Shown in pieces: positions 12,244-40,828 of a stretch of DNA of 45,969 nucleotides. The DNA is from Candidatus Poseidoniia archaeon (lineage in GTDB: Archaea > Thermoplasmatota > Poseidoniia > MGIII > CG-Epi1): positions 1 to 45,969 of the forward strand of contig JASMLC010000013.1 in assembly GCA_030748895.1 (NCBI GenBank). The letters run 5' to 3'. A program made the position numbers and the translations under genes. Positions within the stretch are counted from its first letter, which is position 1. The number at the start of each line of letters is the position of its first letter. Below the pieces are notes generated by a model, which did no database searches, was not told the origin of the DNA, and saw only the letters and a program-made list of their open reading frames with translations.

Positions 12244-13659
12244 ATGGCGATGGCCGAACCGCGTAATGAGCAACTGGAGGGTGACGCAGCGACCGCTCTG
12301 TCGGTCGGCTATCGCCGTTACCATATCGACACCGCGCCGACGCCCGACCTGGCCGACCTGCCGCACCGCTTTCTCGTCGAGGTCAACCGCGTCGAGCTGC
12401 TGAAGCTGCTGGTGCAGGAGACGTGGGAATACTGGGGCCACTGGGACGTGGTCGCCGCGCGCCCCTGCGTCTACGGCGTTTTCTCGGGGCCGGTGGGCGG
12501 CTTTGCGCCGCGGCCGGAGCATTGCGTCGGCTGCCTGCGCTGCACCATCCAGCACCCCGGGGCGGTCACCATTCGCCACAACCCCGAGTGGCAGGCGTGG
12601 GGCGACGCCTATCTGGCGCCGAAGCTGGTCGAAACCATCCTGTCTGAGGCAGCGCTGGGCGCGGTGCCGGTCAAGGGGCAGGGCTATCGCGGGCGGTTCG
12701 GCGGCCCAGGCTGGGACCGCATCTGGACAGACATGTCCGAAATCGTGCGGCCGACGCGCGACGGCATCCACGGCCGCGAAGTCATCTCAACCGTCGTCGA
12801 TATCGGCTCGCGCCCGATGCATCTGGCAACCGACGGCGACGGTGAGCGGCCGCGCTGCCTGCAACTACAGCTTCCCATCCTGTTCGACTCGCCGCCGGAG
12901 TCGGCGCAGAGCGTCGAGATGGCGCGACTGCTAGCGCACGCCGCCGAGGAGCTCGAAACGCTGGCGTTCCTGCCGCTGCCGCTGGTGCGTGAGGCGGTCG
13001 CCGCTTCGCCGGCGGTCGTCCCGCAGCTGCGCGTCGCGGAGCTCGAGGCGCTGGCGCCGGCACCGCGCATGGTCGAAATCCTGGACGACGCCCCCGCCGC
13101 GCTTGCGCTCACCGACGCCATCGTTTGCGAGCGGCTCCCGTTCGAGCCGGGCTGGCGCGAGGCGCTGCTGGCGTCGATTGCCGCCGGCGTGCGCGTCTTC
13201 CACCTTGTCGCAGACTACCACGGCCGCGGCGATGGCCGTTTCGTGCGCGACCTGGCGATGGAGGCGCACGCGTTGCTGGTCGAGAAAGGGCTGCGCGACA
13301 TGGTGACGCTCATCGGCAGCGGTGGTATCGCCGCTGCCGAGCATGTCCCGAAGGCGATTATCTGCGGCTTCGACGCCGTCGCGCTCGACACGCCGTTGCT
13401 GGCGGCGCTACAGGCGCAGCCCGATGGCAGCGTTACCGACGCCGCGACGGCGCGCTTCAGGCTTCCCGCGAGCCTGGATGTCGAGTGGGGCGTCCAGCGA
13501 CTGAAGAATTTGTCGGCAGCGTGGCGCGACCAGCTGCTCGAGATTCTGGGCGCGATGGGGCTGCGCGAGGTGCGGCGGCTGCGCGGGGAGCTCGGCCGCG
13601 CGATGTTCCAGCGCGACCTTGAGCGCGAGGCGTTCGGGGGGATTGACGGCTATGAGTAG
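12244..13659 (+). CDS. Glutamate synthase FMN-domain (GltB2) paralogue with altered Fe-S ligands
   Basis: This 471-residue protein resembles the archaeal split glutamate synthase central domain. The segment WTDMSEIVRPTRDGIHGREV is typical of archaeal FMN-type GltB proteins. The C-terminal half keeps barrel-like elements such as DMVTLIGSGGIAAAEHVPKA. An N-terminal ferredoxin-like motif has Cys94, Cys97 and Cys100, but the expected fourth Cys before Pro is His104 (C-x2-C-x2-C-x3-H-P). The C-terminal Cys cluster found in the next gene product is missing here. It heads the operon, and its stop overlaps the next start by 8 nt. It may be a non-catalytic or electron-carrying partner of the true GltB2. 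The glutamate synthase family call is fairly firm; its precise role is open. Confidence 0.72.
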   Translation: MAMAEPRNEQLEGDAATALSVGYRRYHIDTAPTPDLADLPHRFLVEVNRVELLKLLVQETWEYWGHWDVVAARPCVYGVFSGPVGGFAPRPEHCVGCLRCTIQHPGAVTIRHNPEWQAWGDAYLAPKLVETILSEAALGAVPVKGQGYRGRFGGPGWDRIWTDMSEIVRPTRDGIHGREVISTVVDIGSRPMHLATDGDGERPRCLQLQLPILFDSPPESAQSVEMARLLAHAAEELETLAFLPLPLVREAVAASPAVVPQLRVAELEALAPAPRMVEILDDAPAALALTDAIVCERLPFEPGWREALLASIAAGVRVFHLVADYHGRGDGRFVRDLAMEAHALLVEKGLRDMVTLIGSGGIAAAEHVPKAIICGFDAVALDTPLLAALQAQPDGSVTDAATARFRLPASLDVEWGVQRLKNLSAAWRDQLLEILGAMGLREVRRLRGELGRAMFQRDLEREAFGGIDGYE

Positions 13660-14959
13660 CGTCCCGAGCCCGCAGCTAGTCGAGAAGGTCACCCACTACC
13701 TGCACCAGGGCTTCCACGACCGCTCGCACGCGCTGCTCGAAGCCCCACCTGCTCTGGGCGACCCGCGCTGGACCGACGAGCTGATTATGGCGACCTGGTT
13801 CCAGGCCGAGCACGGCCGCCCGCCAGATGACATCGAGTATCGTGTCGGTCGCTCGGGAGGCGGTTTTGACAGGCTCGACTTCAAGTTTCTTCCCGAGGGC
13901 GAATGGCTTGCGCACAGCGATGCCATTGGCACCGCCATTCCGCTGAACCGGCGCGACCCGGCGCGACAGGAGCTTGAGATCGCTCTGCCGGTCTACGGCG
14001 GTGGGATGTCCTACGGCTCGGTCTCCGAGGAGGTGATGGTCTCCCGAGCTATTGCCGCCCAGGAATTGGGCACGCTCACCTGCACCGGTGAGGGAGGCTA
14101 TCCCGACGGGCTGAAGCCCTACGCCGACAGCGTCATCACCCAGATTGCGACCGGCCTTTTCGGCGTGCGCGAGGAGACCATCCAGCGCGCGCCGATGGTC
14201 GAGTTCAAGTACGCGCAGGGCGCGAAACCCGGCCTTGGGGGGCACCTGCTGGGCGATAAGTCCACCACCACCGTGGCAGACATGCGTGAGTCCGTTCCGT
14301 GGGTATCGCTCTTCTCTCCCTTTCCTTTTCATTCGGTCTATTCCGTCGAAGACCATCGCAAGCATATCGACTGGGCCATGACCATGAATCCCGACGCAAT
14401 AATCTCTGTAAAGGTCTCAACACCGATTGACGTTGACATGGTTGCTGTTGGTTCCTACTACGCCGGTGCGCATGTTTTCCACATAGATGGCAGCTATGGA
14501 GGAACTGGCGCAGCTCCAGAAATTGCGAAAAAGAACATTGCGATGCCCATTGAGCTTGCCATACCGAAGGTGCACCGGCACCTTGAGCAGGAAGGCATTC
14601 GTGACCAAATTACACTGATTGCTAGCGGTGGAGTGCGTACGGCTTGGGATATCGCCAAAGCCATTGCCCTTGGGGCTGACGGTTGTGTTCTCGGCACGTC
14701 AGAACTCATCGCAATGGGATGCACACGTTGTTCCAACTGTGAACGGGGCCGTGGCTGTCCTTTTGGACTTACGACCACTGATCCGGAACTGAAGGAGTGG
14801 GTGCACCCCGACTGGGGCGCCATGCGGGTCGGCAATCTCTACATTTCGTTCCAGTGGCAGCTGCGTGACATCCTTCGCAGACTCGGACTGACCACAATCT
14901 CTGATTTGCGCGGCCGTCGAGATCTACTGCGCTACATCCCGGAGGAGTTCGAGGCGTGA
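13652..14959 (+). CDS. Glutamate synthase large-subunit FMN domain (GltB2)
   Basis: This protein should bind FMN and a 3Fe-4S-type cluster and reduce 2-iminoglutarate to glutamate. The 435-residue product contains PVYGGGMSYGSVSEEVMVSR and TCTGEGGYPDG, a loop with GAKPGLGGHLLGDKS, and IDGSYGGTGAAPEIAKK. IASGGVRTAWDIAKAIALGA is the phosphate-binding part of the barrel, followed by Cys357, Cys360, Cys363 and Cys369 (CTRCSNCERGRGCP). ATG 13652 is chosen because the family sequence starts there and it overlaps the upstream stop; an earlier start at 13619 would lie in another gene. Base composition drops sharply within the gene from about 14290 on, while the protein stays intact. Confidence 0.85.
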   Translation: MSSVPSPQLVEKVTHYLHQGFHDRSHALLEAPPALGDPRWTDELIMATWFQAEHGRPPDDIEYRVGRSGGGFDRLDFKFLPEGEWLAHSDAIGTAIPLNRRDPARQELEIALPVYGGGMSYGSVSEEVMVSRAIAAQELGTLTCTGEGGYPDGLKPYADSVITQIATGLFGVREETIQRAPMVEFKYAQGAKPGLGGHLLGDKSTTTVADMRESVPWVSLFSPFPFHSVYSVEDHRKHIDWAMTMNPDAIISVKVSTPIDVDMVAVGSYYAGAHVFHIDGSYGGTGAAPEIAKKNIAMPIELAIPKVHRHLEQEGIRDQITLIASGGVRTAWDIAKAIALGADGCVLGTSELIAMGCTRCSNCERGRGCPFGLTTTDPELKEWVHPDWGAMRVGNLYISFQWQLRDILRRLGLTTISDLRGRRDLLRYIPEEFEA

Positions 14960-17496
14960 GCCGCGACGCCTGGATTGGAGCGGTGACGCGTAGCCGGGAA
15001 GAGTTACCACATGCGCGTCCACCGGTGGATGGTGCAGCCGAAGGTGGCTGCGGTGTCATTGGCTTCGCTTCGACCGTTCCTGTAGCAGCTCGCCATATGC
15101 TACAATCGCTTGAACAGATGCGCAATCGCGGTAACGGAAAAGGTGGTGGCATCGCTGCAGTGGGTCTTGATTCAGAACAGCTGGGTGTTGACAGAGGGAC
15201 ACTGGAGCAGGACTACCTGCTCGCTGTGGCATACCTTGATGCTTCTGTCCGCAAGGAAGTGGAGTTGTTTGTCAAGAATGCCTACGAGATAGACCATGTC
15301 CATGAATTCCCTGTCAGCGAAGACTGGGACAGTATCGAGGGACTCGAGGTACGGCCACCAGATGTGGCAGCCTATTTCGTGCGCCCTCGTGCCGGGATGC
15401 TGGCTACTTTCGCCGAGGCCGTCGAGTTGCCGCACGGACTTCCGCCAACAGAGCGTGAGTTAGCTGACGAGTACGTATTCCAGACATCTTTCCGGCTCAA
15501 CACTCATTTCTATGCGGGTGACCGTGGAACACAGGCTTTCGTCCTGAGTCATGGTCGTAACCTCCTAGTCCTGAAGATGGTCGGTTATGGGGACGACGTC
15601 ATTCGATGCTACCAGCTTGAGAATCTGAGTGCACATGTCTGGATTGGCCACCACCGCTACCCCACAAAGGGCAAGGTGTGGCACCCCGGCGGGGCACACC
15701 CCTTCGTTGGGTTGAACGAGGCGCTGGTCCACAATGGCGACTTCGCCAATTACGAGGCGGTCTGCGACTATCTCGCGCAGCGCGGACTGCGACCGCTGTT
15801 CCAGACTGACACCGAGGTTTCGGTGCAAGTCTTCGACCTGCACCACCGGCTCTACGGTTACCCGCTCGAGTGGGTCATCGAGTCGCTGGCGCCGACGACC
15901 GAGCGCGACTTCACGCTGCTGCCGCCCGACCGGCAGGAGCTCTACGACCAGCTGCAGGCGACCCACATCCACGGTTCGCCCGACGGGCCGTGGTTCTTCA
16001 TAATCGCGCAGTCCGTGCCGGAAGCGTGGCGACTCATCGGCATCACCGACACCAGCATGTTGCGCCCGCAGGTTTTCGCGCTACAGGAGGGCGAGGCGCA
16101 GATTGCCTTTGCCGCATCCGAGAAACAGGTAATCGACGCCGCGCTCGAGTCGCTCTCGGAAGCCGATAACCGCTTCTGGCCGCGCGCCGACCGCTACTGG
16201 AACGCGCGCGGCGGGTCGCACACCGACGGCGGCGCGTTCATCTTTTCGGTCGTCCCCGACGGCGACCGCTTCCGATTGCAGTGCACCAACAAGTTCGGCG
16301 AGCGCATCACTCTCGGTGATGCGCCGCAGCCGCACACGCTCGCGTCGCACCCAGCGAGCGAGGCTGGCGTCGCCGCCGACGCGCCGGCCGCGGAGGCGTT
16401 CGCCGCCTTCCGGCAAGCCGTTCTGCAGTGGGGCTACGGCGAGCTGCGCGGCTTCCTGCACGAAGTCGAAAAACGGCTGCGAGGCGAAGCAATCGCGCTG
16501 CTGACGCTTCTGCTCGACCGGCGTTACCCGACCGGCGAGCTGCGCCGCAGCTCGCTGCTGGCGCTCGTCGATGAGTCGCTCGAGCGGCTGCTCGGTGCGG
16601 TCGCTGACGCCGAGTGCGACGCATACTGCGCTGGTCGCGGCGCCCCGGACGGCCGCACAGCCGTGCTCGACGCCCGCGGCTTCGACATCGAAGGCCCCAA
16701 GTCGCTGGCAATTGCGGTCGCCGACATGATGCGCGGCGGCTGGCGCCGTTTCCTGGTTTACGGCTGCCACGGCCACCGCTTCATCGCCAACGCCTTCGGC
16801 CCCGACAGCGGCGACATCTGCATTGACGTCTACGGCTCGTCTGGCGACTACCTTGGCTCGGGGATGGACGGCGCACGCGTCGTGGTGCACGGTAACGGAC
16901 AGGACCAACTGGGACAGATTCTGAAGTCGGGTGAGCTGGTAGTCCACGGTGATGTCGGCCAGACATTCATGTACGGTGCCAAGGGCGGCCACGTCTTTGT
17001 TCAGGGCAACGCCGCCGGCCGTCCGCTGATTAACTCGGTCGGCCGCCCGCGCGTAGTCATCAACGGCACCTGTCTCGACTACCTGGCGGAGTCGTTCATG
17101 GCGGGCGACCCGCTCAACGACGGCGGTTTCGTCATCCTGAACGGCCTTGAGTGGGATGACGACGGCGAGCTGCGCGAGCTGCCGACGCCCTACCCGGGCG
17201 GCAACCTGTTTTCGCTGGCGTCGGGCGGCGCTATCTACGTCCGTGACCCGCACCAGCGCGTCACCGCCGACCAGCTCAACGGTGGCGACTTTGCGCCGTT
17301 CACCAGCGCCGACTGGGCAGTGGTTGAGCCGCTGCTGCGGCAGAACGAGCGCGAGTTCGGCCTGCCGGTCGCGCGGCTGCTCGAGGTCAACGGGCAGCCG
17401 CGCCGGCCGGGCGAGGTCTACCGCCGCATTCAGCCCGCCGCAACCAAGGCGCTACAGGCCGAAGAGGTGTGGGTCGCGCACGCCCAGAATGGCTGA
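14956..17496 (+). CDS. Glutamate synthase amidotransferase fused to GXGXG domain (GltB1-GltB3)
   Basis: The 846-residue product joins two domains that archaea often encode separately. The N-terminal class II glutamine amidotransferase would release ammonia from glutamine. Its nucleophile is probably Cys32 in GGCGVIGFA, after a roughly 31-residue extension that may be a cleaved propeptide. HHRYPTKGKVWHPGGAHPF and ALVHNGDFANYE are typical of this domain. The C-terminal GXGXG beta-helix (about residues 560-760) includes GSGMDGARVVVHGNG, GELVVHGDVGQTFMYGAKGG and VQGNAAGRPL. No NADPH-binding GltD gene is present, so the electron donor is unknown (ferredoxin is plausible). GTG 14956 overlaps the previous stop as GTGA. 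The first 700 bases are much lower in GC than the rest. An MgsABC/GlxBCD-like N-methylglutamate synthase is an alternative. Confidence 0.82.
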   Translation: MSRDAWIGAVTRSREELPHARPPVDGAAEGGCGVIGFASTVPVAARHMLQSLEQMRNRGNGKGGGIAAVGLDSEQLGVDRGTLEQDYLLAVAYLDASVRKEVELFVKNAYEIDHVHEFPVSEDWDSIEGLEVRPPDVAAYFVRPRAGMLATFAEAVELPHGLPPTERELADEYVFQTSFRLNTHFYAGDRGTQAFVLSHGRNLLVLKMVGYGDDVIRCYQLENLSAHVWIGHHRYPTKGKVWHPGGAHPFVGLNEALVHNGDFANYEAVCDYLAQRGLRPLFQTDTEVSVQVFDLHHRLYGYPLEWVIESLAPTTERDFTLLPPDRQELYDQLQATHIHGSPDGPWFFIIAQSVPEAWRLIGITDTSMLRPQVFALQEGEAQIAFAASEKQVIDAALESLSEADNRFWPRADRYWNARGGSHTDGGAFIFSVVPDGDRFRLQCTNKFGERITLGDAPQPHTLASHPASEAGVAADAPAAEAFAAFRQAVLQWGYGELRGFLHEVEKRLRGEAIALLTLLLDRRYPTGELRRSSLLALVDESLERLLGAVADAECDAYCAGRGAPDGRTAVLDARGFDIEGPKSLAIAVADMMRGGWRRFLVYGCHGHRFIANAFGPDSGDICIDVYGSSGDYLGSGMDGARVVVHGNGQDQLGQILKSGELVVHGDVGQTFMYGAKGGHVFVQGNAAGRPLINSVGRPRVVINGTCLDYLAESFMAGDPLNDGGFVILNGLEWDDDGELRELPTPYPGGNLFSLASGGAIYVRDPHQRVTADQLNGGDFAPFTSADWAVVEPLLRQNEREFGLPVARLLEVNGQPRRPGEVYRRIQPAATKALQAEEVWVAHAQNG

Positions 17497-18194: not shown

Positions 18195-19153
18195 GCCGCG
18201 TCGCTCGTCTCGGTCCGGAAGTAGTGGTAGAAGCAGAACATCGCGACCGCGCCCAGCAGGTGCCACAGCGCATGCCCCTGCAGCAGCGTGTCCGGCTCGC
18301 ACAGCGCGCCCCCCTGCTGACTCGCTCGCCAGATGAAGCTTGCTAGCAGGTATGCCGCGAAGCCGCCCCAGAAGTAAGGCGAGTAGGTCCGCTGTAGCCT
18401 GATTTCGTCGAGCTGGTAGAGGAACCACGCCAGCAGTAGCATGAAAATTATGATTATGACACCGACCTGTTCGCGAACGAAATCGACGGGATTGTAATTG
18501 AAGAGGATAAGTATCCCCGTAATCGGCACGAGGAAGATTGCCAGCGGCTGGCGCTGGTAGCGGATGGCAGTCTCCTGCGCCAGCCAGATGGCAATTGCGA
18601 AACCCCAGACAAAGAGTCCAATACCGTATTGCCAGTGCAGCACGCTCAGCAATGCATTGGTCCCGAGATAGCCCGCGAGGAATTGTCGTTCGTCCCAGCC
18701 GAGGAAGCGCGCGAAGTTGTAGAACACCGGCATCGTGATGTACATCATCATACCGCTGAGATCGAGCCACCCACCCCAGTCGGTGTTGAAGCCGTGCATC
18801 GCGAAGCTGCCGACGCCGACCGCGATGCACGCACCGCCATAGGCGGCGGTGAACCAGCTGCGGGTCGCCAGCGATGGCCGCCCCGCGACCGGGTCGTGCT
18901 GCATCCGCCACAGCACCCACAGCCCGACCAGCACGAAGGGGATGTTCGATAGCGTGTTCGCCGGCTCGCGGATGAAGCCGGCCGTGATTCGCTCGCAATA
19001 ATGCGCCGCGTCGCCAATCCTGCCGTCGGACGCGGCGCCCCAGCTGCCGTCGTTCAGCGCATACGCGAGCGCGAAGGCCACAAAGATGGCGACGACGACG
19101 GCGAGGCCGACACAGAACTCGCGGCGGTCGCGGAGGTAGTCGGCGTCAATCAC
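18191..19153 (-). CDS. Ceramidase-like (CREST-superfamily) membrane hydrolase
   Basis: This 320-residue integral membrane protein has about seven hydrophobic segments. From family knowledge, alkaline ceramidases and other CREST-superfamily hydrolases share a Zn site made of Ser, Asp and three His. The sequence shows REPANTLSNIPF near 62-73, GSFAMHGF with Ser117 and His120, LDLSGMM with Asp131, and GHALWHLLGAVA with His294 and His298. These match the expected set in order. Family substrates are lipid amides such as ceramide; whether an archaeal lipid amide serves here is unknown. The GTG start at 19153 is supported by a TATA-like element at 19172-19180. It is coupled to the downstream HAD phosphatase. 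Confidence 0.72.
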   Translation of the reverse strand: MIDADYLRDRREFCVGLAVVVAIFVAFALAYALNDGSWGAASDGRIGDAAHYCERITAGFIREPANTLSNIPFVLVGLWVLWRMQHDPVAGRPSLATRSWFTAAYGGACIAVGVGSFAMHGFNTDWGGWLDLSGMMMYITMPVFYNFARFLGWDERQFLAGYLGTNALLSVLHWQYGIGLFVWGFAIAIWLAQETAIRYQRQPLAIFLVPITGILILFNYNPVDFVREQVGVIIIIFMLLLAWFLYQLDEIRLQRTYSPYFWGGFAAYLLASFIWRASQQGGALCEPDTLLQGHALWHLLGAVAMFCFYHYFRTETSDAA

Positions 19154-19171
19154 GGCTGGCGAGCCTCCGCC

Positions 19172-19180
19172 GGTTTAACC
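19172..19180 (-). promoter_or_regulatory. TATA-like element of the ceramidase-like/HAD operon
   Basis: Read leftward this is GGTTAAACC, 19-27 nt before the GTG start at 19153. It lies between the tRNA 3' end and the gene, and supports the GTG as a leaderless start. Confidence 0.4.
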
Positions 19181-19190
19181 ACTTCCGCGC

Positions 19191-19266
19191 TGGTGGGCCC
19201 GCCTGGATTTGAACCAGAGTCAATGGCTCCCAAAGCCACAAGGATGCCAAGCTACCCCACGGGCCC
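19191..19266 (-). tRNA. tRNA-Pro, anticodon TGG
   Basis: The minus strand folds as a complete cloverleaf. The acceptor stem GGGCCCG (19266-19260) pairs with CGGGCCC. The D arm has GGGTAGCTTGGCATCC. The anticodon stem GTGGC/GCCAT closes the loop TTTGGGA, giving anticodon TGG (proline, CCA codons). The T arm has loop TTCAAAT. The discriminator is A73 (19194), and CCA is encoded at 19193-19191. There is no intron. A TATA-like element at 19287-19296 inside the end of the upstream acetyltransferase gene could drive it. Confidence 0.95.
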
Positions 19267-24904: not shown

Positions 24905-24925
24905 CCCGTGTCGGGTGGCGCGCCG

Positions 24926-25896
<971 letters not shown>

Positions 25897-25900
<4 letters not shown>

Positions 25901-26682
25901 GCCAGCTCTCGGGGCTCTACGCCATCTGGCTGCGCGAAGTCAAGGTCTTCTTCCGCGAGTATTCGCGGCTAGTCGGGAGTGTACTGACACCACTATTATG
26001 GCTCGTCGTGGTCGGCAAGGGCATCGGCGCCTCCATCGTGGACGACGAGAGCTTTGGCGGGGTCGGTTACGATACCTTCATATTTCCCGGAATATTGTGC
26101 ATGACAGTCCTGTTCCAGTCGGTATTCTACGGACTCTACATCGTCTGGGACCGGAAAATCGATTTCCTCAAAGAGGTGCTCGCGGCGCCGCTCCATCGCT
26201 CGACCATCTTCCTCGGCAAGGTGCTGGGCGGGGTCACCGACTCGATGGTGCAAGTCACGATAATCGTTGTTTTAGGATACTTCATCTTCCCCGAAGCGAC
26301 CTACACCGTGCAGAGCCTCGCCATCGTCTATCTCTTCATGTTCCTGCTGGCGGTGACGATGACCTCCATCGGGCTGATTATCGGCTCGCGCATGGAGTCC
26401 CCTGAGGGGTTCTCGCTGGTCGTGAGCCTAGTCGTGTTCCCGATGTATTTCCTCAGCGGTGCGCTCTTCCTGAAGAAGAACCTGGTCAACGAGGCGCCCT
26501 ACCTCTACTGGGCGACGGTCGCCAACCCGGTCAGCTACGCCGTCGACGCCATCCGCTACACGCTGCTCCCCGTCGAGGCGTTCAACGAGTTCGGGCTGGC
26601 GCTCGACCTCGCGGTGCTGGGCGGCTTCTGCGTCGCCCTGCTCGGCGTCGGCACGCTGGCGTTCCGCACCATGCGGCTCTGA
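25897..26682 (+). CDS. ABC-2 type transporter permease
   Basis: This 261-residue membrane subunit has about six TM segments. It opens with YAIWLREVKVFFREYSR, the usual amphipathic entry helix, followed by LVGSVLTPLLWLVVVGKG. SPEGFSLVVSLVVFPMYFLS precedes the last helices, and NPVSYAVDAIRYTL is the conserved ABC-2 C-terminal motif. ATG 25897 overlaps the stop of the ATPase gene. The pair resembles DrrAB/daunorubicin-type exporters, but such systems also move lipids, O-antigen-like glycans or peptides. It converges on pyrK. Confidence 0.88.
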
Positions 26683-31790: not shown

Positions 31791-34517
31791 TTACAGCAGC
31801 TGCCGTCGCGCAACCGCCCATGCCACGATACCGCCCCCCGCCAGGCCGAGCAGCAGCGGCAGCCCCCAGCCGGGTTCGTCGCCGACGCGCAGCGTAAAGG
31901 TGAGGTTCACCTGCACCCCCGGCTGCTCCACGCTGCTGGCGCTGAAGCTGACGCTGTAGCTGCCGTCGGCCCCAGCGACCCCGAGTAGCCGTACCTCGCG
32001 CGTCTCGAACGATGCCAGCTGCATGTAGCTCTCCGAGAGGTGCAGTGCAAGGCCTTCCGGCAGCGCCTTCGTCAGCACCACTGTTTCGGGGCCGTTGCCC
32101 GCGTTGGTGACGAAAAGCGACCAGCCGCCGCCCTCGCGCTCGGACGCCGAAAGGCGCAGCCCGTGATACTGCGGCACGTTCACCGCAAAGCTCGCGTTGC
32201 CGGCCGGGAAGCCGTTGCGGTCAACCAGCGAGACGCCCACCTCGTGCGGGCCGGCGACGCTCTCGAGCGCGGGGGTGATGCGGATGCGGGTGGTTTCGCC
32301 ACCGGAGAAGGAGAGATACGAAATGTCGTATTCTCCCCCGCCCGGCCATTCTATAATGTTGGATGACAGGTTATGTCTCCGGACATACCACTCGGTAAGG
32401 GTAGTGTAAACTGCCATTTGCTCCGCTTCCCATCCCATCGGCAGGTTCAGGAACACTTCACCAGAATCATACGACTGCGGCTTGGAACCAGTTGTGCTCA
32501 AGTTAACCTCGAGCCCGCTGAATCCCCCGTCCTCAAAGCTGGATGGGACCAGGGTCTCGACCTGAATTTCATAGTCATGCGCTTCAACCGGGAAAAATGT
32601 GAAATCAAGGCTGGCGGAGTTGTCGGCCGGGTTTTCGTCGCCTGATTCGGACTGCACCGTCAGCGAAGCGTGGTAGGGGCCGGTGTAATCCTCAAGCGTC
32701 TGGTTGTAATCAGTTGTGGAATCGTAGTCCTGCCATGAAGAGACGACTTTGACCATAACCAGTCCATGGAAACTGAACTGATTCTGATAAGCTATTAAGA
32801 TAATTCTTTCATCTGGCAAAATATTGCCGGCCTCAAACAGGTTCGGCTGGCCGTTGTTATCGAACACCAGGGTTACGTTCTCGGCTACAGTTGACCCCTG
32901 GTTGTAGATTGTAGCATCAAACGATACATCGTCACCGACCTGCTGGTGTTGTGGCGAGCCGAATAATTTACCCGGGAAATTTGTGAAATACTCCACCACG
33001 AGGTCCGGCAGTTGCAGGTCCACCACCAGGCCCTCCGCGATGAGGTGGTCCTGCAGCCAGCCGTCGCCGTCGTAGAGCAGCGCATCGAGCCGGTAGCTGC
33101 CGGAGCGCGCCGGGCGCAGCGTGACGGCGGGGAGCGTGCCGCCGCCGCCTCCGCTGAGCGCGTGTTCCTTGTGCGCGACGATGTTGCCGTCGCCGTCCTG
33201 CAGGAACAGCTCCAGCCGGGCGGCATCGCCAGCGTAGCTGCCGCTGAGCGTGATGTTGGCGCCGTCGGCGCTCGCGTTGGCGGCGAGCGACGCGTGTGGT
33301 TGCGGCAGCTCGGAGTTGAGCGCGTCGATGAAGGCGCGCCAGCCGCCGCCCTCCGCGGCGGCTGCGAGGTCGAAGTAGCGCGACGACGGGGTCGAGGCGG
33401 GGTAGTAAATCGTGAGACCGTACGCGTCGCTGACGTCGCGGCGGCCCGGCATCGTCCAGTGGTCCTCGACGACGGTGGCGTTCGCCTGCGCCTGCCGCAC
33501 GCGGTCGCCCGCCAGCCGCACCGCCGGCGACGGCGTCCACTCGGCGGTGCGCAGCGTCAGGTCGTACAGGTCGCGGTAGTAGCTGTTCTCGAACACCTGC
33601 GCATTGGCGCGGGCGTCGTTCACCTCGTCGCGGTAGAGCGTCTGCACCGCGCGCAGCTCGTGGCCGAAGTCGGAGATGGCGGTGTTGAGCGGCTCAAGCT
33701 GCGCGGTGTCGATGACCGAGGCGGTGACCGAGTAGCCGCTCGGGATCGAGCCGTTACGGTAGCTCTCGACGTAGGTGTAGACCACTACCTCGAGCATCTC
33801 TTCGCGGCTCGTCTCCGCGCCGAGCAGCGGCAGCAGGTGGTTGTAGGTCCACCCCTCCTGCGGCTCGTACGCCTCGGAGCCGTGGATGTAGGCGGCGTGC
33901 TCGCGCAACTCGTACGCAATCTCGAACATCCCCATCAGGCAGGCGTCGAAGCCAACCAGCGTCAGCGGCCCGTGGCCGGTCGCGCTGCGGTATTCCGCGA
34001 GCGCCCCCTCGATTTCTGGCACCGTCAGGTAGCTTCCGCCGTCCTCGGCGACGCGCTTGAAGCCGTTGCCGTGGTTCCAGATGACCAGGATGCGCTCCTG
34101 CGCCGGGTATTCCGTCGTCGCCCACGCCAGGAAATCGCGCAGCGTGGCGGGGTCGCCCATGTCCAGCTCGTCGCCCCAGCCGCTGCTGATGTCGGCCAGC
34201 GGCGTCTCCTCGAGGCCGTTGCGCAGCACGCGGTAGGCGCGGCTGTCGCTGTCGCCCGACTGGTCGACCAGCGCGACCACCTCGCGGCCGCCGTTCGAGC
34301 CGGCCGCCTGCATCTCGAACAGGTCGTCGGCCGCCTCCTCGGAGAGCGAATTGTCGCCCGCCATGTAGACGTAGAAGCCCCACTTCGGCAGCGGCTCCCC
34401 GGCGCCCGCCGTGCCCAGCAGCGAGCCCCCGAGCGGCAGCGTGGGGCCGGGCAGCGCGACTGGCGGCGCGAGCAGCAGCAGCGCCAACAACAATGTAACA
34501 AGCCGCCCCGGGGACAT
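31791..34517 (-). CDS. Secreted clostripain-like (C11) cysteine peptidase with repeat domains and TM anchor
   Basis: The 908-residue product starts with a signal peptide (MSPGRLVTLLLALLLLAPPV). The catalytic domain of about 380 residues begins at KWGFYVYMAGDNSLSEEAAD. The His/Cys dyad is His149 (VIWNHGNGF) and Cys193 (GFDACLMGMFE), exactly the C11 pattern; these enzymes cut after Arg or Lys. Beta-rich repeats of CARDB/NEW3 type fill about 430-880, and a TM helix with short basic tail ends it (LLLGLAGGGIVAWAVARRQLL). The frame is open to 34850, but the signal peptide and the TATA box at 34538-34547 fix ATG 34517. Between about nt 32300 and 32990 GC content falls sharply (20 of 60 bases at 32761-32820) without breaking the frame. 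Confidence 0.88.
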   Translation of the reverse strand: MSPGRLVTLLLALLLLAPPVALPGPTLPLGGSLLGTAGAGEPLPKWGFYVYMAGDNSLSEEAADDLFEMQAAGSNGGREVVALVDQSGDSDSRAYRVLRNGLEETPLADISSGWGDELDMGDPATLRDFLAWATTEYPAQERILVIWNHGNGFKRVAEDGGSYLTVPEIEGALAEYRSATGHGPLTLVGFDACLMGMFEIAYELREHAAYIHGSEAYEPQEGWTYNHLLPLLGAETSREEMLEVVVYTYVESYRNGSIPSGYSVTASVIDTAQLEPLNTAISDFGHELRAVQTLYRDEVNDARANAQVFENSYYRDLYDLTLRTAEWTPSPAVRLAGDRVRQAQANATVVEDHWTMPGRRDVSDAYGLTIYYPASTPSSRYFDLAAAAEGGGWRAFIDALNSELPQPHASLAANASADGANITLSGSYAGDAARLELFLQDGDGNIVAHKEHALSGGGGGTLPAVTLRPARSGSYRLDALLYDGDGWLQDHLIAEGLVVDLQLPDLVVEYFTNFPGKLFGSPQHQQVGDDVSFDATIYNQGSTVAENVTLVFDNNGQPNLFEAGNILPDERIILIAYQNQFSFHGLVMVKVVSSWQDYDSTTDYNQTLEDYTGPYHASLTVQSESGDENPADNSASLDFTFFPVEAHDYEIQVETLVPSSFEDGGFSGLEVNLSTTGSKPQSYDSGEVFLNLPMGWEAEQMAVYTTLTEWYVRRHNLSSNIIEWPGGGEYDISYLSFSGGETTRIRITPALESVAGPHEVGVSLVDRNGFPAGNASFAVNVPQYHGLRLSASEREGGGWSLFVTNAGNGPETVVLTKALPEGLALHLSESYMQLASFETREVRLLGVAGADGSYSVSFSASSVEQPGVQVNLTFTLRVGDEPGWGLPLLLGLAGGGIVAWAVARRQLL

Positions 34518-34537
34518 CAGCCTGCCTGCCCCATGAG

Positions 34538-34547
34538 CGATATAAAG
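34538..34547 (-). promoter_or_regulatory. TATA box of the C11 peptidase gene
   Basis: Leftward CTTTATATCG lies 21-30 nt before ATG 34517. It is a strong match and decides the start codon. Confidence 0.6.
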
Positions 34548-34563
34548 GTCAGCCGGATGCGCT

Positions 34564-35136
34564 TCAGTCGCGGGCGGCGTCGCCCGCGGGCGACGCCGCC
34601 TCGCCCTCGGCCGGAGCCGAGAGCGCGACCCAGAGCGGGAGCCCGACGAGGGTGAAGGTGACGATGCTCGAGAGCAGGTGGTAGAGCATGAACGGCAGCC
34701 CCAGTGTGTAGACCGCCAGCAGGTTGCCCGGCGTGTGCGCCCACCAGAGCCAGAAGACGCCGAAATTGGTCCAGCCGTCGTAGACCGCCGCGAAGACGAC
34801 CCCCGCGCCGGCGAAGCGCATCGCCAGCCCGGGCGAGAGCCGCCCGCCAATCTGCGGGCGCCAGCGGCGCGACGCGAGCGCGACGAGCAGGAAGCCGGAA
34901 TAGGTGAAGGCGATGATGGGCGAGCCCCAGAGATAGCCGAGCCACCAGTCGCTCAGGAGCATCATCCCCATCGTCACCGCGACCGCCCACGCGAAGGGCA
35001 GCAGCATTGCCGCCAGGAAGGTGGCGACCATCACGGTCTCGACGTTGGGGTGCGCGTGCAGCGCAATCCGCCCCCCCGCGCCGAGCAGCAACAGCACCCC
35101 GGCGGTGAGCGGCAGCGGCAGCCGGCTCTGTTCCAT
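34564..35136 (-). CDS. DUF6580-like (ECF substrate-binding-like) membrane protein
   Basis: This 190-residue protein has about five or six TM segments. AHPNVETVMVATFLAAMLLP early on, MLLSDWWLGYLWGSPIIAFT in the middle, and YDGWTNFGVFWLWWAHTPGN followed by GLPFMLYHLLSSIV fit the DUF6580 pattern as I recall it. That family resembles substrate-binding S components of energy-coupling-factor transporters. No EcfA or EcfT gene is nearby, so the substrate (vitamin or metal) and even a transport role are guesses. ATG 35136 is preferred over farther upstream codons because the hydrophobic protein begins there and a TATA box sits at 35158-35166. Confidence 0.65.
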   Translation of the reverse strand: MEQSRLPLPLTAGVLLLLGAGGRIALHAHPNVETVMVATFLAAMLLPFAWAVAVTMGMMLLSDWWLGYLWGSPIIAFTYSGFLLVALASRRWRPQIGGRLSPGLAMRFAGAGVVFAAVYDGWTNFGVFWLWWAHTPGNLLAVYTLGLPFMLYHLLSSIVTFTLVGLPLWVALSAPAEGEAASPAGDAARD

Positions 35137-37896: not shown

Positions 37897-37927
37897 CAGC
37901 AGCAACGTGCGCGCGAAGGGAGATTAC

Positions 37928-40828
37928 ATGGAATCCAACAATGGAAACAAACTCGCTTCGTTCCTTCTTGCAGGAGCGCTACTGCTTTCGGGACTGCTAG
38001 TTTTCCCAACCGCTGCAGGAAATCCGGGACCAGACCTCTGGCTCAGTGATTTCTACGAGCCTGCTGGAAGTCCACCTCCACGCGCTGACACGCTCTATGA
38101 GGTCTACTTGGCGTGGGAGAACAGTGGCGACGCCGACGCTAATGGTGTACGAATCGGTATCGACGACGAGGATGGCAACCAGATGGCCATCTCGGACTAC
38201 ATTAACATGGGTGCCGGTGAGACCGGCTCGCTGACGTTGAACATCACCTTTGACAGCGTGGGGGAGACTATGCCTGTCGCGATTGTAGACTACGACGAGA
38301 CCGTCAGTGAGGACGACGAGGACAACAACGAGTACGAGGGCTGGTTCAACGTCGAGCCGAAAATAGGCATTGCCGACGTCTGGGCCGATTTGGATATTGA
38401 GGACACCGAGGCTCAGGCAGGCCAGCAGATGCTGCTCCGCTTCAGCATCGGCAACTCCGGCAACGTCAGCACCGCTACGCCGGTAACACTTGGTCTCTTC
38501 TTCGAGGAGGCAGGCGATGAACCGCAGAACTGGATTGACCCCACTCCACTGCACTACGACTACATCCAGCCCCCACCCCCGGGTGAGGAAGGAGGTGAGA
38601 TGATGGAGTTTGAGTGGCAGGTTCCCCAGGACACCGATGATGGATGGTATGAGTTCACTGTAATTGCCGATTACTACGAAAACAACACTGAGGACAACAA
38701 TATCTCCAATAACCGGGACACCCACGAAATCTGTATCGGTGACTGCACCTTGCCCGACCTGACTTGGTACGAGGCGGCTCAGGAATCTATAACTCTAAGT
38801 CCTCCTGAGGCGATAGCGGGTGAAGTGGTAACCGTTATCTATGCCCTGGCCAACATCGGCGAGGGTGCCGCGGGACCACCAGCTATCGTAATCAACCTTG
38901 AGGTGGAAAAGTGCCCGTGTGATGGCAGCGGCTGGCAGCAGGTTAACACGACTGGCGACCTGCGTGTGACGATTGGCGCCGGCCAGACCTTTAGTTCCGA
39001 GGAAGAGCTGGGGCTGAACTGGTCGATTCCCGAAGATGGCCCGGGCGACTGGGACCTGCGCATCGTGATTGACCCTGACAACAATCTTGAAGAGGCTCGC
39101 GAGGACAACAACAACCTTACCTGGTATGATGCCCATGAGGACTACCTTGAGGTAATCGAGCGCAAGCCGGACCTACGGGTCGCAGGTGTCTCGACTCCTG
39201 GTCAGGCATACGCAGGTGATACCATCGACCTCGACCTCCATATCCAGCAGAGCGAACTGGGAAACAAGATGGCGACCGACACCAACGTGCGGCTGCGCAT
39301 CACCGACCCCGAGCTGCAGGAATACGGCCCCTACACCCTCGGACCGCTTGATGTCGGAACCTTCCCGGACATAATTTTCTTCACCTTCGAGTGGGATATT
39401 CCGCTCAACTGCGGCGGTAGCGCCTGTATCGGTGACTACACGCTGGAGGTCATGGTCGACCCCGGCAACGAGATTGATGAGTGGGACGAGACTAACAACC
39501 TGCGCAACGACCTCTCGATTAATGTGAAGGAAATGCTCCCTGACCTGATTGTCAGCGACGTGGTAATCACGCCGGTCGACGAGGACGGCAGCGCCGCGGT
39601 CGGCGTCGCCAGCACCATCACCGCTGTCGTCAGCAACATTGGGCTGCGCGACATGAGTCCGGGCGAAGGGGCTGACTTCGAGGTTACCTTCAGTACTGCG
39701 GCTCCGTCCTATTCCGTGATTGGCACGACCGCGGTTGGAATTGCTCTGGCGATTGGCGAGTCAGCCAACGTCTCGATTGGCTACATCTTCACTGACCTCG
39801 GCACCTACAAAGTAGTGGCCGAAGCTGACGCGGCTGACGACATCAACGAGATGGACGAGAGCAACAACGAGGCGTACGATATCCTCCCGGCCGTGACGAG
39901 CATCGACGGCTGGGTGCAGAATGTCACGACTACCGATGGCCTTTCGGGCAAGAATCATCCTCTCAGCTTCGAGATTGGTTTCAACAACCTCCCGGCTTCG
40001 GGCTGGCAATACCTCTTCTTCCGCGTGACCGTGGAGGGAACCGGTGGCTGGGGCGACGTTCTCCAGCTCGAGGCTGGTGAGAATTTCCTTGTTTCACCCG
40101 AGAAACCAAGCGGGGAACCGAGCGACTGGCGACCAGAAAACTGGTCCAGCGCTATATTCATGCCCAACACAGCCTACGTCAACCTGACCGCGGCGAATCC
40201 CAACGCGAACATCACGGTCAACTGGGTGCCCGACAAGGACCGTAGCGACAATTACACAATCACGATCAAGGTTTTTGCCATGATCGATACCGATGAGGAC
40301 AACAACGCCGCGACGACCACTGCCAACATCGAGAAACTGACGACCGACCTGCTCATCGAGAAGATGTCGGTCAAGGATACCGCCAGCTCGGTGCAGATAA
40401 TCGTCGACGTACTGTTCGTTGAGGGCGAGCAGTCGACCCTCTGGGACGTCGAAGTCTCGCTCAAGGTGTATGACTGGGATGACTACGCTGCCGACAGCGA
40501 CGCCGCGGTACCGCGCGAGAATCTCGGAACCAAGACTATCAACGGTGGGCTGTCGCGTGGCAGCAGCTGGTCGCTCACTTTCACCTGGGCGCGCGAGAAG
40601 GGCGAGTTCATCTTCGTCGCCGAGGTTGACCCCAACAACAAGGTGCGCGAAATCAACGAGGTTAACAACGTCTACGCCTCCGATGTGGAGGAGTTCGGCG
40701 ATGTCAGCACCGGCGGCACCGACAATGGTGGCGAGGACGATGGCGGCCTCTTCGGCATTCCATCTATCTCGGGAATAGCGGCGCTTTCGCTGCTCGGCAC
40801 GGTAGCCCTCCTGCGTCGTCGTCGCTAA
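37928..40828 (+). CDS. CARDB-repeat surface protein with C-terminal sorting-type tail
   Basis: The 966-residue product starts with MESNNGNKLASFLLAGALLL, a signal peptide ending near residue 30. Tandem CARDB-like domains of about 100-130 residues follow, each with features such as DNNEYEGWFNV, DPDNNLEEAREDNN, DPGNEIDEWDETNN and DPNNKVREINEVNN: the closing D-x-x-N-x-x-x-E/D-x-x-E-x-N-N turn repeats at least six times. A Gly/Asp-rich linker leads to GIPSISGIAALSLLGTVALL and four Arg, the motif-helix-basic layout of archaeal PGF-CTERM-type sorting tails, though the PGF itself is absent. It is probably an abundant surface or S-layer-associated protein. GC content is lower than in the neighbours, mainly in the first 1.3 kb. 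Its stop overlaps the GPN GTPase start (TAATG). Confidence 0.85.
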   Translation: MESNNGNKLASFLLAGALLLSGLLVFPTAAGNPGPDLWLSDFYEPAGSPPPRADTLYEVYLAWENSGDADANGVRIGIDDEDGNQMAISDYINMGAGETGSLTLNITFDSVGETMPVAIVDYDETVSEDDEDNNEYEGWFNVEPKIGIADVWADLDIEDTEAQAGQQMLLRFSIGNSGNVSTATPVTLGLFFEEAGDEPQNWIDPTPLHYDYIQPPPPGEEGGEMMEFEWQVPQDTDDGWYEFTVIADYYENNTEDNNISNNRDTHEICIGDCTLPDLTWYEAAQESITLSPPEAIAGEVVTVIYALANIGEGAAGPPAIVINLEVEKCPCDGSGWQQVNTTGDLRVTIGAGQTFSSEEELGLNWSIPEDGPGDWDLRIVIDPDNNLEEAREDNNNLTWYDAHEDYLEVIERKPDLRVAGVSTPGQAYAGDTIDLDLHIQQSELGNKMATDTNVRLRITDPELQEYGPYTLGPLDVGTFPDIIFFTFEWDIPLNCGGSACIGDYTLEVMVDPGNEIDEWDETNNLRNDLSINVKEMLPDLIVSDVVITPVDEDGSAAVGVASTITAVVSNIGLRDMSPGEGADFEVTFSTAAPSYSVIGTTAVGIALAIGESANVSIGYIFTDLGTYKVVAEADAADDINEMDESNNEAYDILPAVTSIDGWVQNVTTTDGLSGKNHPLSFEIGFNNLPASGWQYLFFRVTVEGTGGWGDVLQLEAGENFLVSPEKPSGEPSDWRPENWSSAIFMPNTAYVNLTAANPNANITVNWVPDKDRSDNYTITIKVFAMIDTDEDNNAATTTANIEKLTTDLLIEKMSVKDTASSVQIIVDVLFVEGEQSTLWDVEVSLKVYDWDDYAADSDAAVPRENLGTKTINGGLSRGSSWSLTFTWAREKGEFIFVAEVDPNNKVREINEVNNVYASDVEEFGDVSTGGTDNGGEDDGGLFGIPSISGIAALSLLGTVALLRRRR

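Follow-up and report, generated by a model that had tools for sequence, protein, structure and literature searches.

The window, the whole stretch of 45,969 bases analysed here, is contig C13 of G000, a Marine Group III (MGIII) euryarchaeote MAG of 1.41 Mb with 97.3% completeness and 0.4% contamination. Its nearest relatives are the Euryarchaeota MAGs NP112 (PCBV01; G005) and Cayman_92_shallow (PSPB01; G001), and the Marine Group III euryarchaeote CG-Bathy1 (MIYU01; G007) belongs to the same family. Within the genus, identity to G000 over long stretches is about 91-93% for G001 and G002, about 85% for G004, and about 79% for G003 and G005. The window carries a glutamate synthase operon with the following features (GC3 is the GC content of third codon positions):

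12244-13659, plus strand: divergent glutamate synthase-like protein, 471 aa (Pfam PF01645, E 1.3e-5, the match covering only the C-terminal part of Glu_synthase; GC3 0.86)
13619-14959, plus strand: GltB2-type glutamate synthase FMN/Fe-S domain protein, 446 aa (Pfam PF01645, E 1.8e-89)
13795-14065, plus strand: separate putative recombinant tract, with the G005 (NP112) lineage as its near-identical counterpart (site patterns)
14276-15636, plus strand: low-GC3 patch, a putative segment from a lower-GC, G003-like congener (codon model; identity to G001)
14789-14842, plus strand: probable native island within the patch, with G001 identity at all 54 bases
14956-17496, plus strand: class II glutamine amidotransferase (GltB1-type) fused to a GXGXG (GltB3-type) domain, 846 aa (Pfam GATase_6 and GXGXG)
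15551-15636, plus strand: portion of the patch for which G003 also has sequence, 96.5% identity to the window
16861-17010, plus strand: possible short second G003-like tract (third-position identity)

The second and third genes hold the elements of a predicted GltB-type module, namely a Glu_synthase domain with Fe-S cysteines and a class II amidotransferase with an Ntn cysteine and a GXGXG domain. Both frames are open, with a four-base overlap. The Fe-S cysteine cluster of GltB2 (14720-14761) is intact, the Ntn cysteine codon of the amidotransferase (15049-15051) is kept together with its surroundings, and GHHRYPTKG (15646-15672), slightly past the right edge of the patch, is intact as well; frames and motifs are thus preserved across the patch, as a preliminary description of this DNA had proposed. 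The left edge of the patch falls within the gltB2 gene and the right edge within the amidotransferase gene, while the gene at 12244-13659 is native flank, with G001 as its closest congener.

In the true reading frames GC3 drops from about 0.85 to about 0.52 in the patch and then returns. Measured in 180-base windows, it is 0.80-0.88 immediately 5' of about 14300, 0.43-0.63 over 14339-14878, 0.48-0.62 over 14956-15675 and 0.77-0.92 beyond about 15600, such that flanks of about 0.72-0.92 enclose values of 0.43-0.63 through most of 14339-15675. Substitutions lie at third positions both inside and outside the patch, and the dip is therefore not an artefact of ORF calling. When each synonymous codon was scored under G003 versus G000 usage, a two-state model singled out one segment, 14276-15636, at a log-likelihood ratio of 64 nats; the maximum among 1000 simulations with identical amino acids and G000 usage was 12.2 nats. 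The collapse and abrupt return of GC3 reported in the preliminary description are borne out by both analyses, its limits of 14290-15650 were correct to within about 15 bases, and its count of 26 G or C among the 60 bases of 14401-14460 is exact. The breakpoints can be placed at about 14254-14287, between the last cluster of G001-shared sites and the first run of sites peculiar to the window, and at about 15630-15741, in the conserved stretch around GHHRYPTKG.

The genome background was sampled as twenty 20-kb stretches of G000 (400 kb), in which whole low-GC genes are present and real-frame patches with an intragenic edge are few. Several candidates for further patches were dropped. The large intragenic GC3 steps in stretches L215, L212 and L218, several of them similar in size to the dip, have their substitutions at other codon positions and reflect wrong-frame ORF calls; for those in L214 and L221, an alternative frame of high GC3 is open. 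In the window, the apparent ultraconservation of 25.9-26.6 kb and 34.4-34.9 kb is the same frame artefact, and a lower-GC segment at 13804-17475 of L220 was rejected as a G003-type tract in that G001 has it too.

Two congeners, G001 and G005, have sequence across the patch, and comparison with them shows that gene order, frames and length are unchanged, the alignment to both being free of gaps over 13619-16080. Over the same alignment columns GC3 is 0.44-0.71 in the window, 0.65-0.81 in G005 and 0.80-0.93 in G001; because neither congener has the dip, the genes themselves do not account for it. Third-position identity between the window and G001 is about 0.75 to the left, about 0.39-0.56 in most of the patch (about 0.50 overall) and 0.71-0.77 to the right, while codon positions 1 and 2 remain about 0.98-0.99 identical over most of the gltB2 part. 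At all sites the corresponding values are 0.898 in the left flank (the G005-like tract excluded), 0.791 in the patch and 0.894 in the right flank. Local selection or constraint on codon usage, by way of RNA structure, expression or an overlapping signal, could in principle lower GC3 without foreign DNA, and the dip does cross the four-base gene overlap, where translational coupling could matter. Such an explanation is extremely improbable, however, given that the same genes, aligned without gaps, have no dip in G001 and G005, that silent divergence rises together with the dip, and that the right end is common to G003 at 96.5% identity.

The event at this locus is specific to the window lineage and is not shared by G001 or G005. 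A reading in which the patch is instead an ancestral state, retained in the window and G003 and overwritten independently in G001 and G005, is very unlikely: recombination is common in the genus, and a reverse exchange is found elsewhere (ABC transporter, 24.9 kb, described below), but two independent replacements with identical edges would be required, and G001-G005 identity in the patch (0.842) is normal for the pair (0.851 in the left flank).

The source of the patch is indicated by G003, whose contig C16 starts at window position 15551 and so overlaps only the last 85 or so bases of the patch. Over 15551-15636 identity to the window is 0.965 for G003, 0.791 for G001 and 0.774 for G005, and over 15742-16080 it is 0.808 for G003 and about 0.90 for G001 and G005. 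The site patterns change likewise: over 15552-15630 the window agrees with G003 alone at 13 sites and with G001 and G005 against G003 at none, whereas from 15741 on the dominant pattern is agreement with G001 and G005 against G003. By these patterns the right end of the patch is a G003-type allele, and since near-identity to G003 at this end drops beyond 15741, the donor would be G003-like. Codon usage points the same way, in that the patch favours G003 over G000 by 60 nats and each flank favours G000 by about 90; the GC3 of G003 is close to that of the patch, at about 0.61 across sampled genes and about 0.55 within the amidotransferase gene. When a full-length donor of the patch was sought in the family, matches came only from G001, G005, the distant G007 and, over 150 bases, G003. 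Codon usage and divergence suggest a single donor for the whole patch, inclusive of the 1.27 kb at 14276-15550, to which no G003 sequence extends.

These observations agree with what allelic replacement predicts. The nearest relative changes sharply at both edges, as seen at the right edge from site patterns with G003, G001 and G005, and at the left edge from the fall in G001 identity and from codon usage. A donor of matching composition is identifiable in G003, from the right end (96.5%) and the codon-usage fit. In protein trees of both patch and flank the window lies within the MGIII genus with 100% support, and the donor would on this ground be a congener. The preliminary description had held that a common placement of patch and flanks, with smooth codon usage, would count against replacement; the nearest relatives of the two differ.

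The patch is not the only mosaic element of the operon. Over 13775-14066 the window matches G005 at 44 sites and G001 at one, against ratios of 7:17 and 9:19 in the G001-like flanks (permutation P < 0.0002), which defines the G005-like tract at 13795-14065. This tract and the G003-like patch together imply two or more foreign tracts at the locus, derived from two congeners. Within the patch, the 54 bases at 14789-14842 include ten consecutive polymorphic sites shared with G001 (permutation P 0.004) and are probably a native island; GC3 climbs to about 0.75 at about 14770-14959, before the gene junction. Further downstream, third-position identity to G003 reaches 0.90 and 0.83 in two windows at 16861-17010, compared with about 0.5 around them.

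Similar tracts recur elsewhere in G000, and neither this recurrence nor the G005-like tract had figured in the preliminary description. In L216, a stretch of contig C6 of G000, a gene at 14019-17216 switches from native to G003-like at 16420-16434, with 75 native to 7 G003 sites before the switch and 63 G003 to 13 native sites after it, as GC3 falls from about 0.85 to about 0.55. The resulting tract, from 16420 to about 17100, has a sharp intragenic edge and groups with G003 against G001, G002 and G004. In L207, a stretch of contig C2 of G000, the codons at positions 1211-2000 have a third-position identity to G003 of 0.80-0.90, which then falls to 0.47 further on, and are probably a third G003-like tract, again intragenic; a long stretch beside it that is conserved genus-wide may be ribosomal RNA.

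Exchange in another direction is suggested by the ABC transporter region of the window (24908-26600), where G005 is nearly as near as G002. Third-position identity of the window over 24908-25900 is about 0.86-0.97 to both G002 and G005, and around the transporter that to G005 is only about 0.5-0.65. Three further sites in the window were observed. A gene at 37907-40828, encoding a 973-aa protein with CARDB repeats, has uneven and lower GC3; at 37.9-40.0 kb its silent sites are near-identical to those of G001 and G002, with flanks at about 0.8 and no G003 alignment, and part of this gene has possibly spread recently between species. A low-GC stretch at 32261-32991 lies within a clostripain-family (Peptidase_C11) gene on the minus strand (31791-34850), and no relative aligns with it at the DNA level. 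At 19153-19172, beside a tRNA (19194-19266), about 2.3 kb present in G003 and G005 is missing from the window, marking a variable site.

The alternative to replacement already raised in the preliminary description is chimeric assembly, wherein G000-like and G003-like populations coexisted in the metagenome and the assembler switched to the low-GC one and back within a conserved operon. Every genome compared is a MAG, and at or beside the right breakpoint there are exact G003-shared runs of 73 bases (15551-15623) and 59 bases (15637-15695), which can accommodate k-mers of usual length, although the shared runs beyond the right edge are short (26 bases, 15715-15740). G003 contigs moreover end inside both clear tracts, at window position 15551 and at 16919 of L216, as assembler confusion would give; the chance of such an end is about 0.14 and about 0.06, each tract taken singly. 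Real shared alleles would break assembly graphs too, however, and these contig ends are not decisive. For a chimera, the assembler would need to switch twice in 1.4 kb, twice more around the G005-like tract some 200 bases upstream, and again in L216, and the probable native island at 14789-14842 would have to be accommodated. The MAG, 97% complete and 0.4% contaminated, yielded no second, native copy of the region. Finally, the tracts differ in their distance from G003, with about 97% nucleotide identity at the patch versus 93-95% in L216. Misassembly is accordingly judged improbable, if less so than the other alternatives, and the evidence supports the original proposal, homologous replacement by DNA from a lower-GC relative, with G003 as near kin of the donor at the right end.

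It is thus considered probable, from the sequence comparisons above, that the patch arose by homologous (allelic) replacement between congeneric species about 20% diverged, with a G003-like donor. DNA of a lower-GC Marine Group III congener close to G003 would have entered the cell, by whatever route, and recombined by homology into the glutamate synthase operon, where some 1.36 kb spanning the gltB2/amidotransferase junction would have been replaced, presumably by RadA-type strand exchange. A homologous, in-register exchange of this kind accounts for the preservation of both frames and the absence of any gained gene. As read from the alignments, the replacement altered codon usage and some 37-54 residues relative to the congeners: within the patch GltB2 differs at 15 of 227 residues from G001 and at 13 of 227 from G005, and the amidotransferase at 39 of 227 and 24 of 223, respectively. 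The exchange probably left the enzyme working. At the divergence of G003 from G000, about 20%, most organisms that have been tested recombine homologous DNA inefficiently.

Mosaic genes produced by short-tract interspecies exchange are familiar (for example from Neisseria); with these the MGIII patch shares intragenic tracts, sharp edges and raised silent divergence, but for the patch no selective agent is known. Among archaea, interspecies homologous replacement has been obtained in the laboratory between Haloferax volcanii and H. mediterranei, at about 14% divergence (review, PMC4500145). The two cases are alike in that sequence shared by archaeal species is replaced in register, regardless of gene borders (PMC4500145); the MGIII patch differs in that it is read from MAGs of uncultured marine archaea, is about 1.4 kb long and would span about 20% divergence. 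Single-cell genomes of deep-ocean SAR11 reveal promiscuous homologous recombination, commoner within than between species, and, as proposed here, frequent mosaic exchange of core genes in deep-sea plankton (PMC12374537), whereas the MGIII exchange involves more distant congeners and is based on MAGs rather than single cells. Among the papers searched, none dealt with recombination in Marine Group III. The replacement would be an ordinary, known kind of gene exchange, although at a somewhat wider divergence than in the Haloferax case and across a gap between species that is unusually wide.

Taken with the one or two tracts elsewhere and the exchange in another direction, the foreign tracts at this locus, at least two in number, raise the tentative possibility, toward which we lean less than to its contrary, that MGIII archaea often swap core-gene segments across about 20% divergence, their genomes being fine mosaics and the divergence barrier to recombination weak. 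Intragenic mosaics of either origin, biology or assembly, can mislead single-gene trees and MAG quality scores in MGIII. If the replacement is real, a GC3 dip accompanied by sudden near-identity to one congener would be a simple mark for mapping exchange where species differ in G+C, and core metabolic genes would be subject to homologous replacement among uncultured marine archaea that belong to clearly distinct species.
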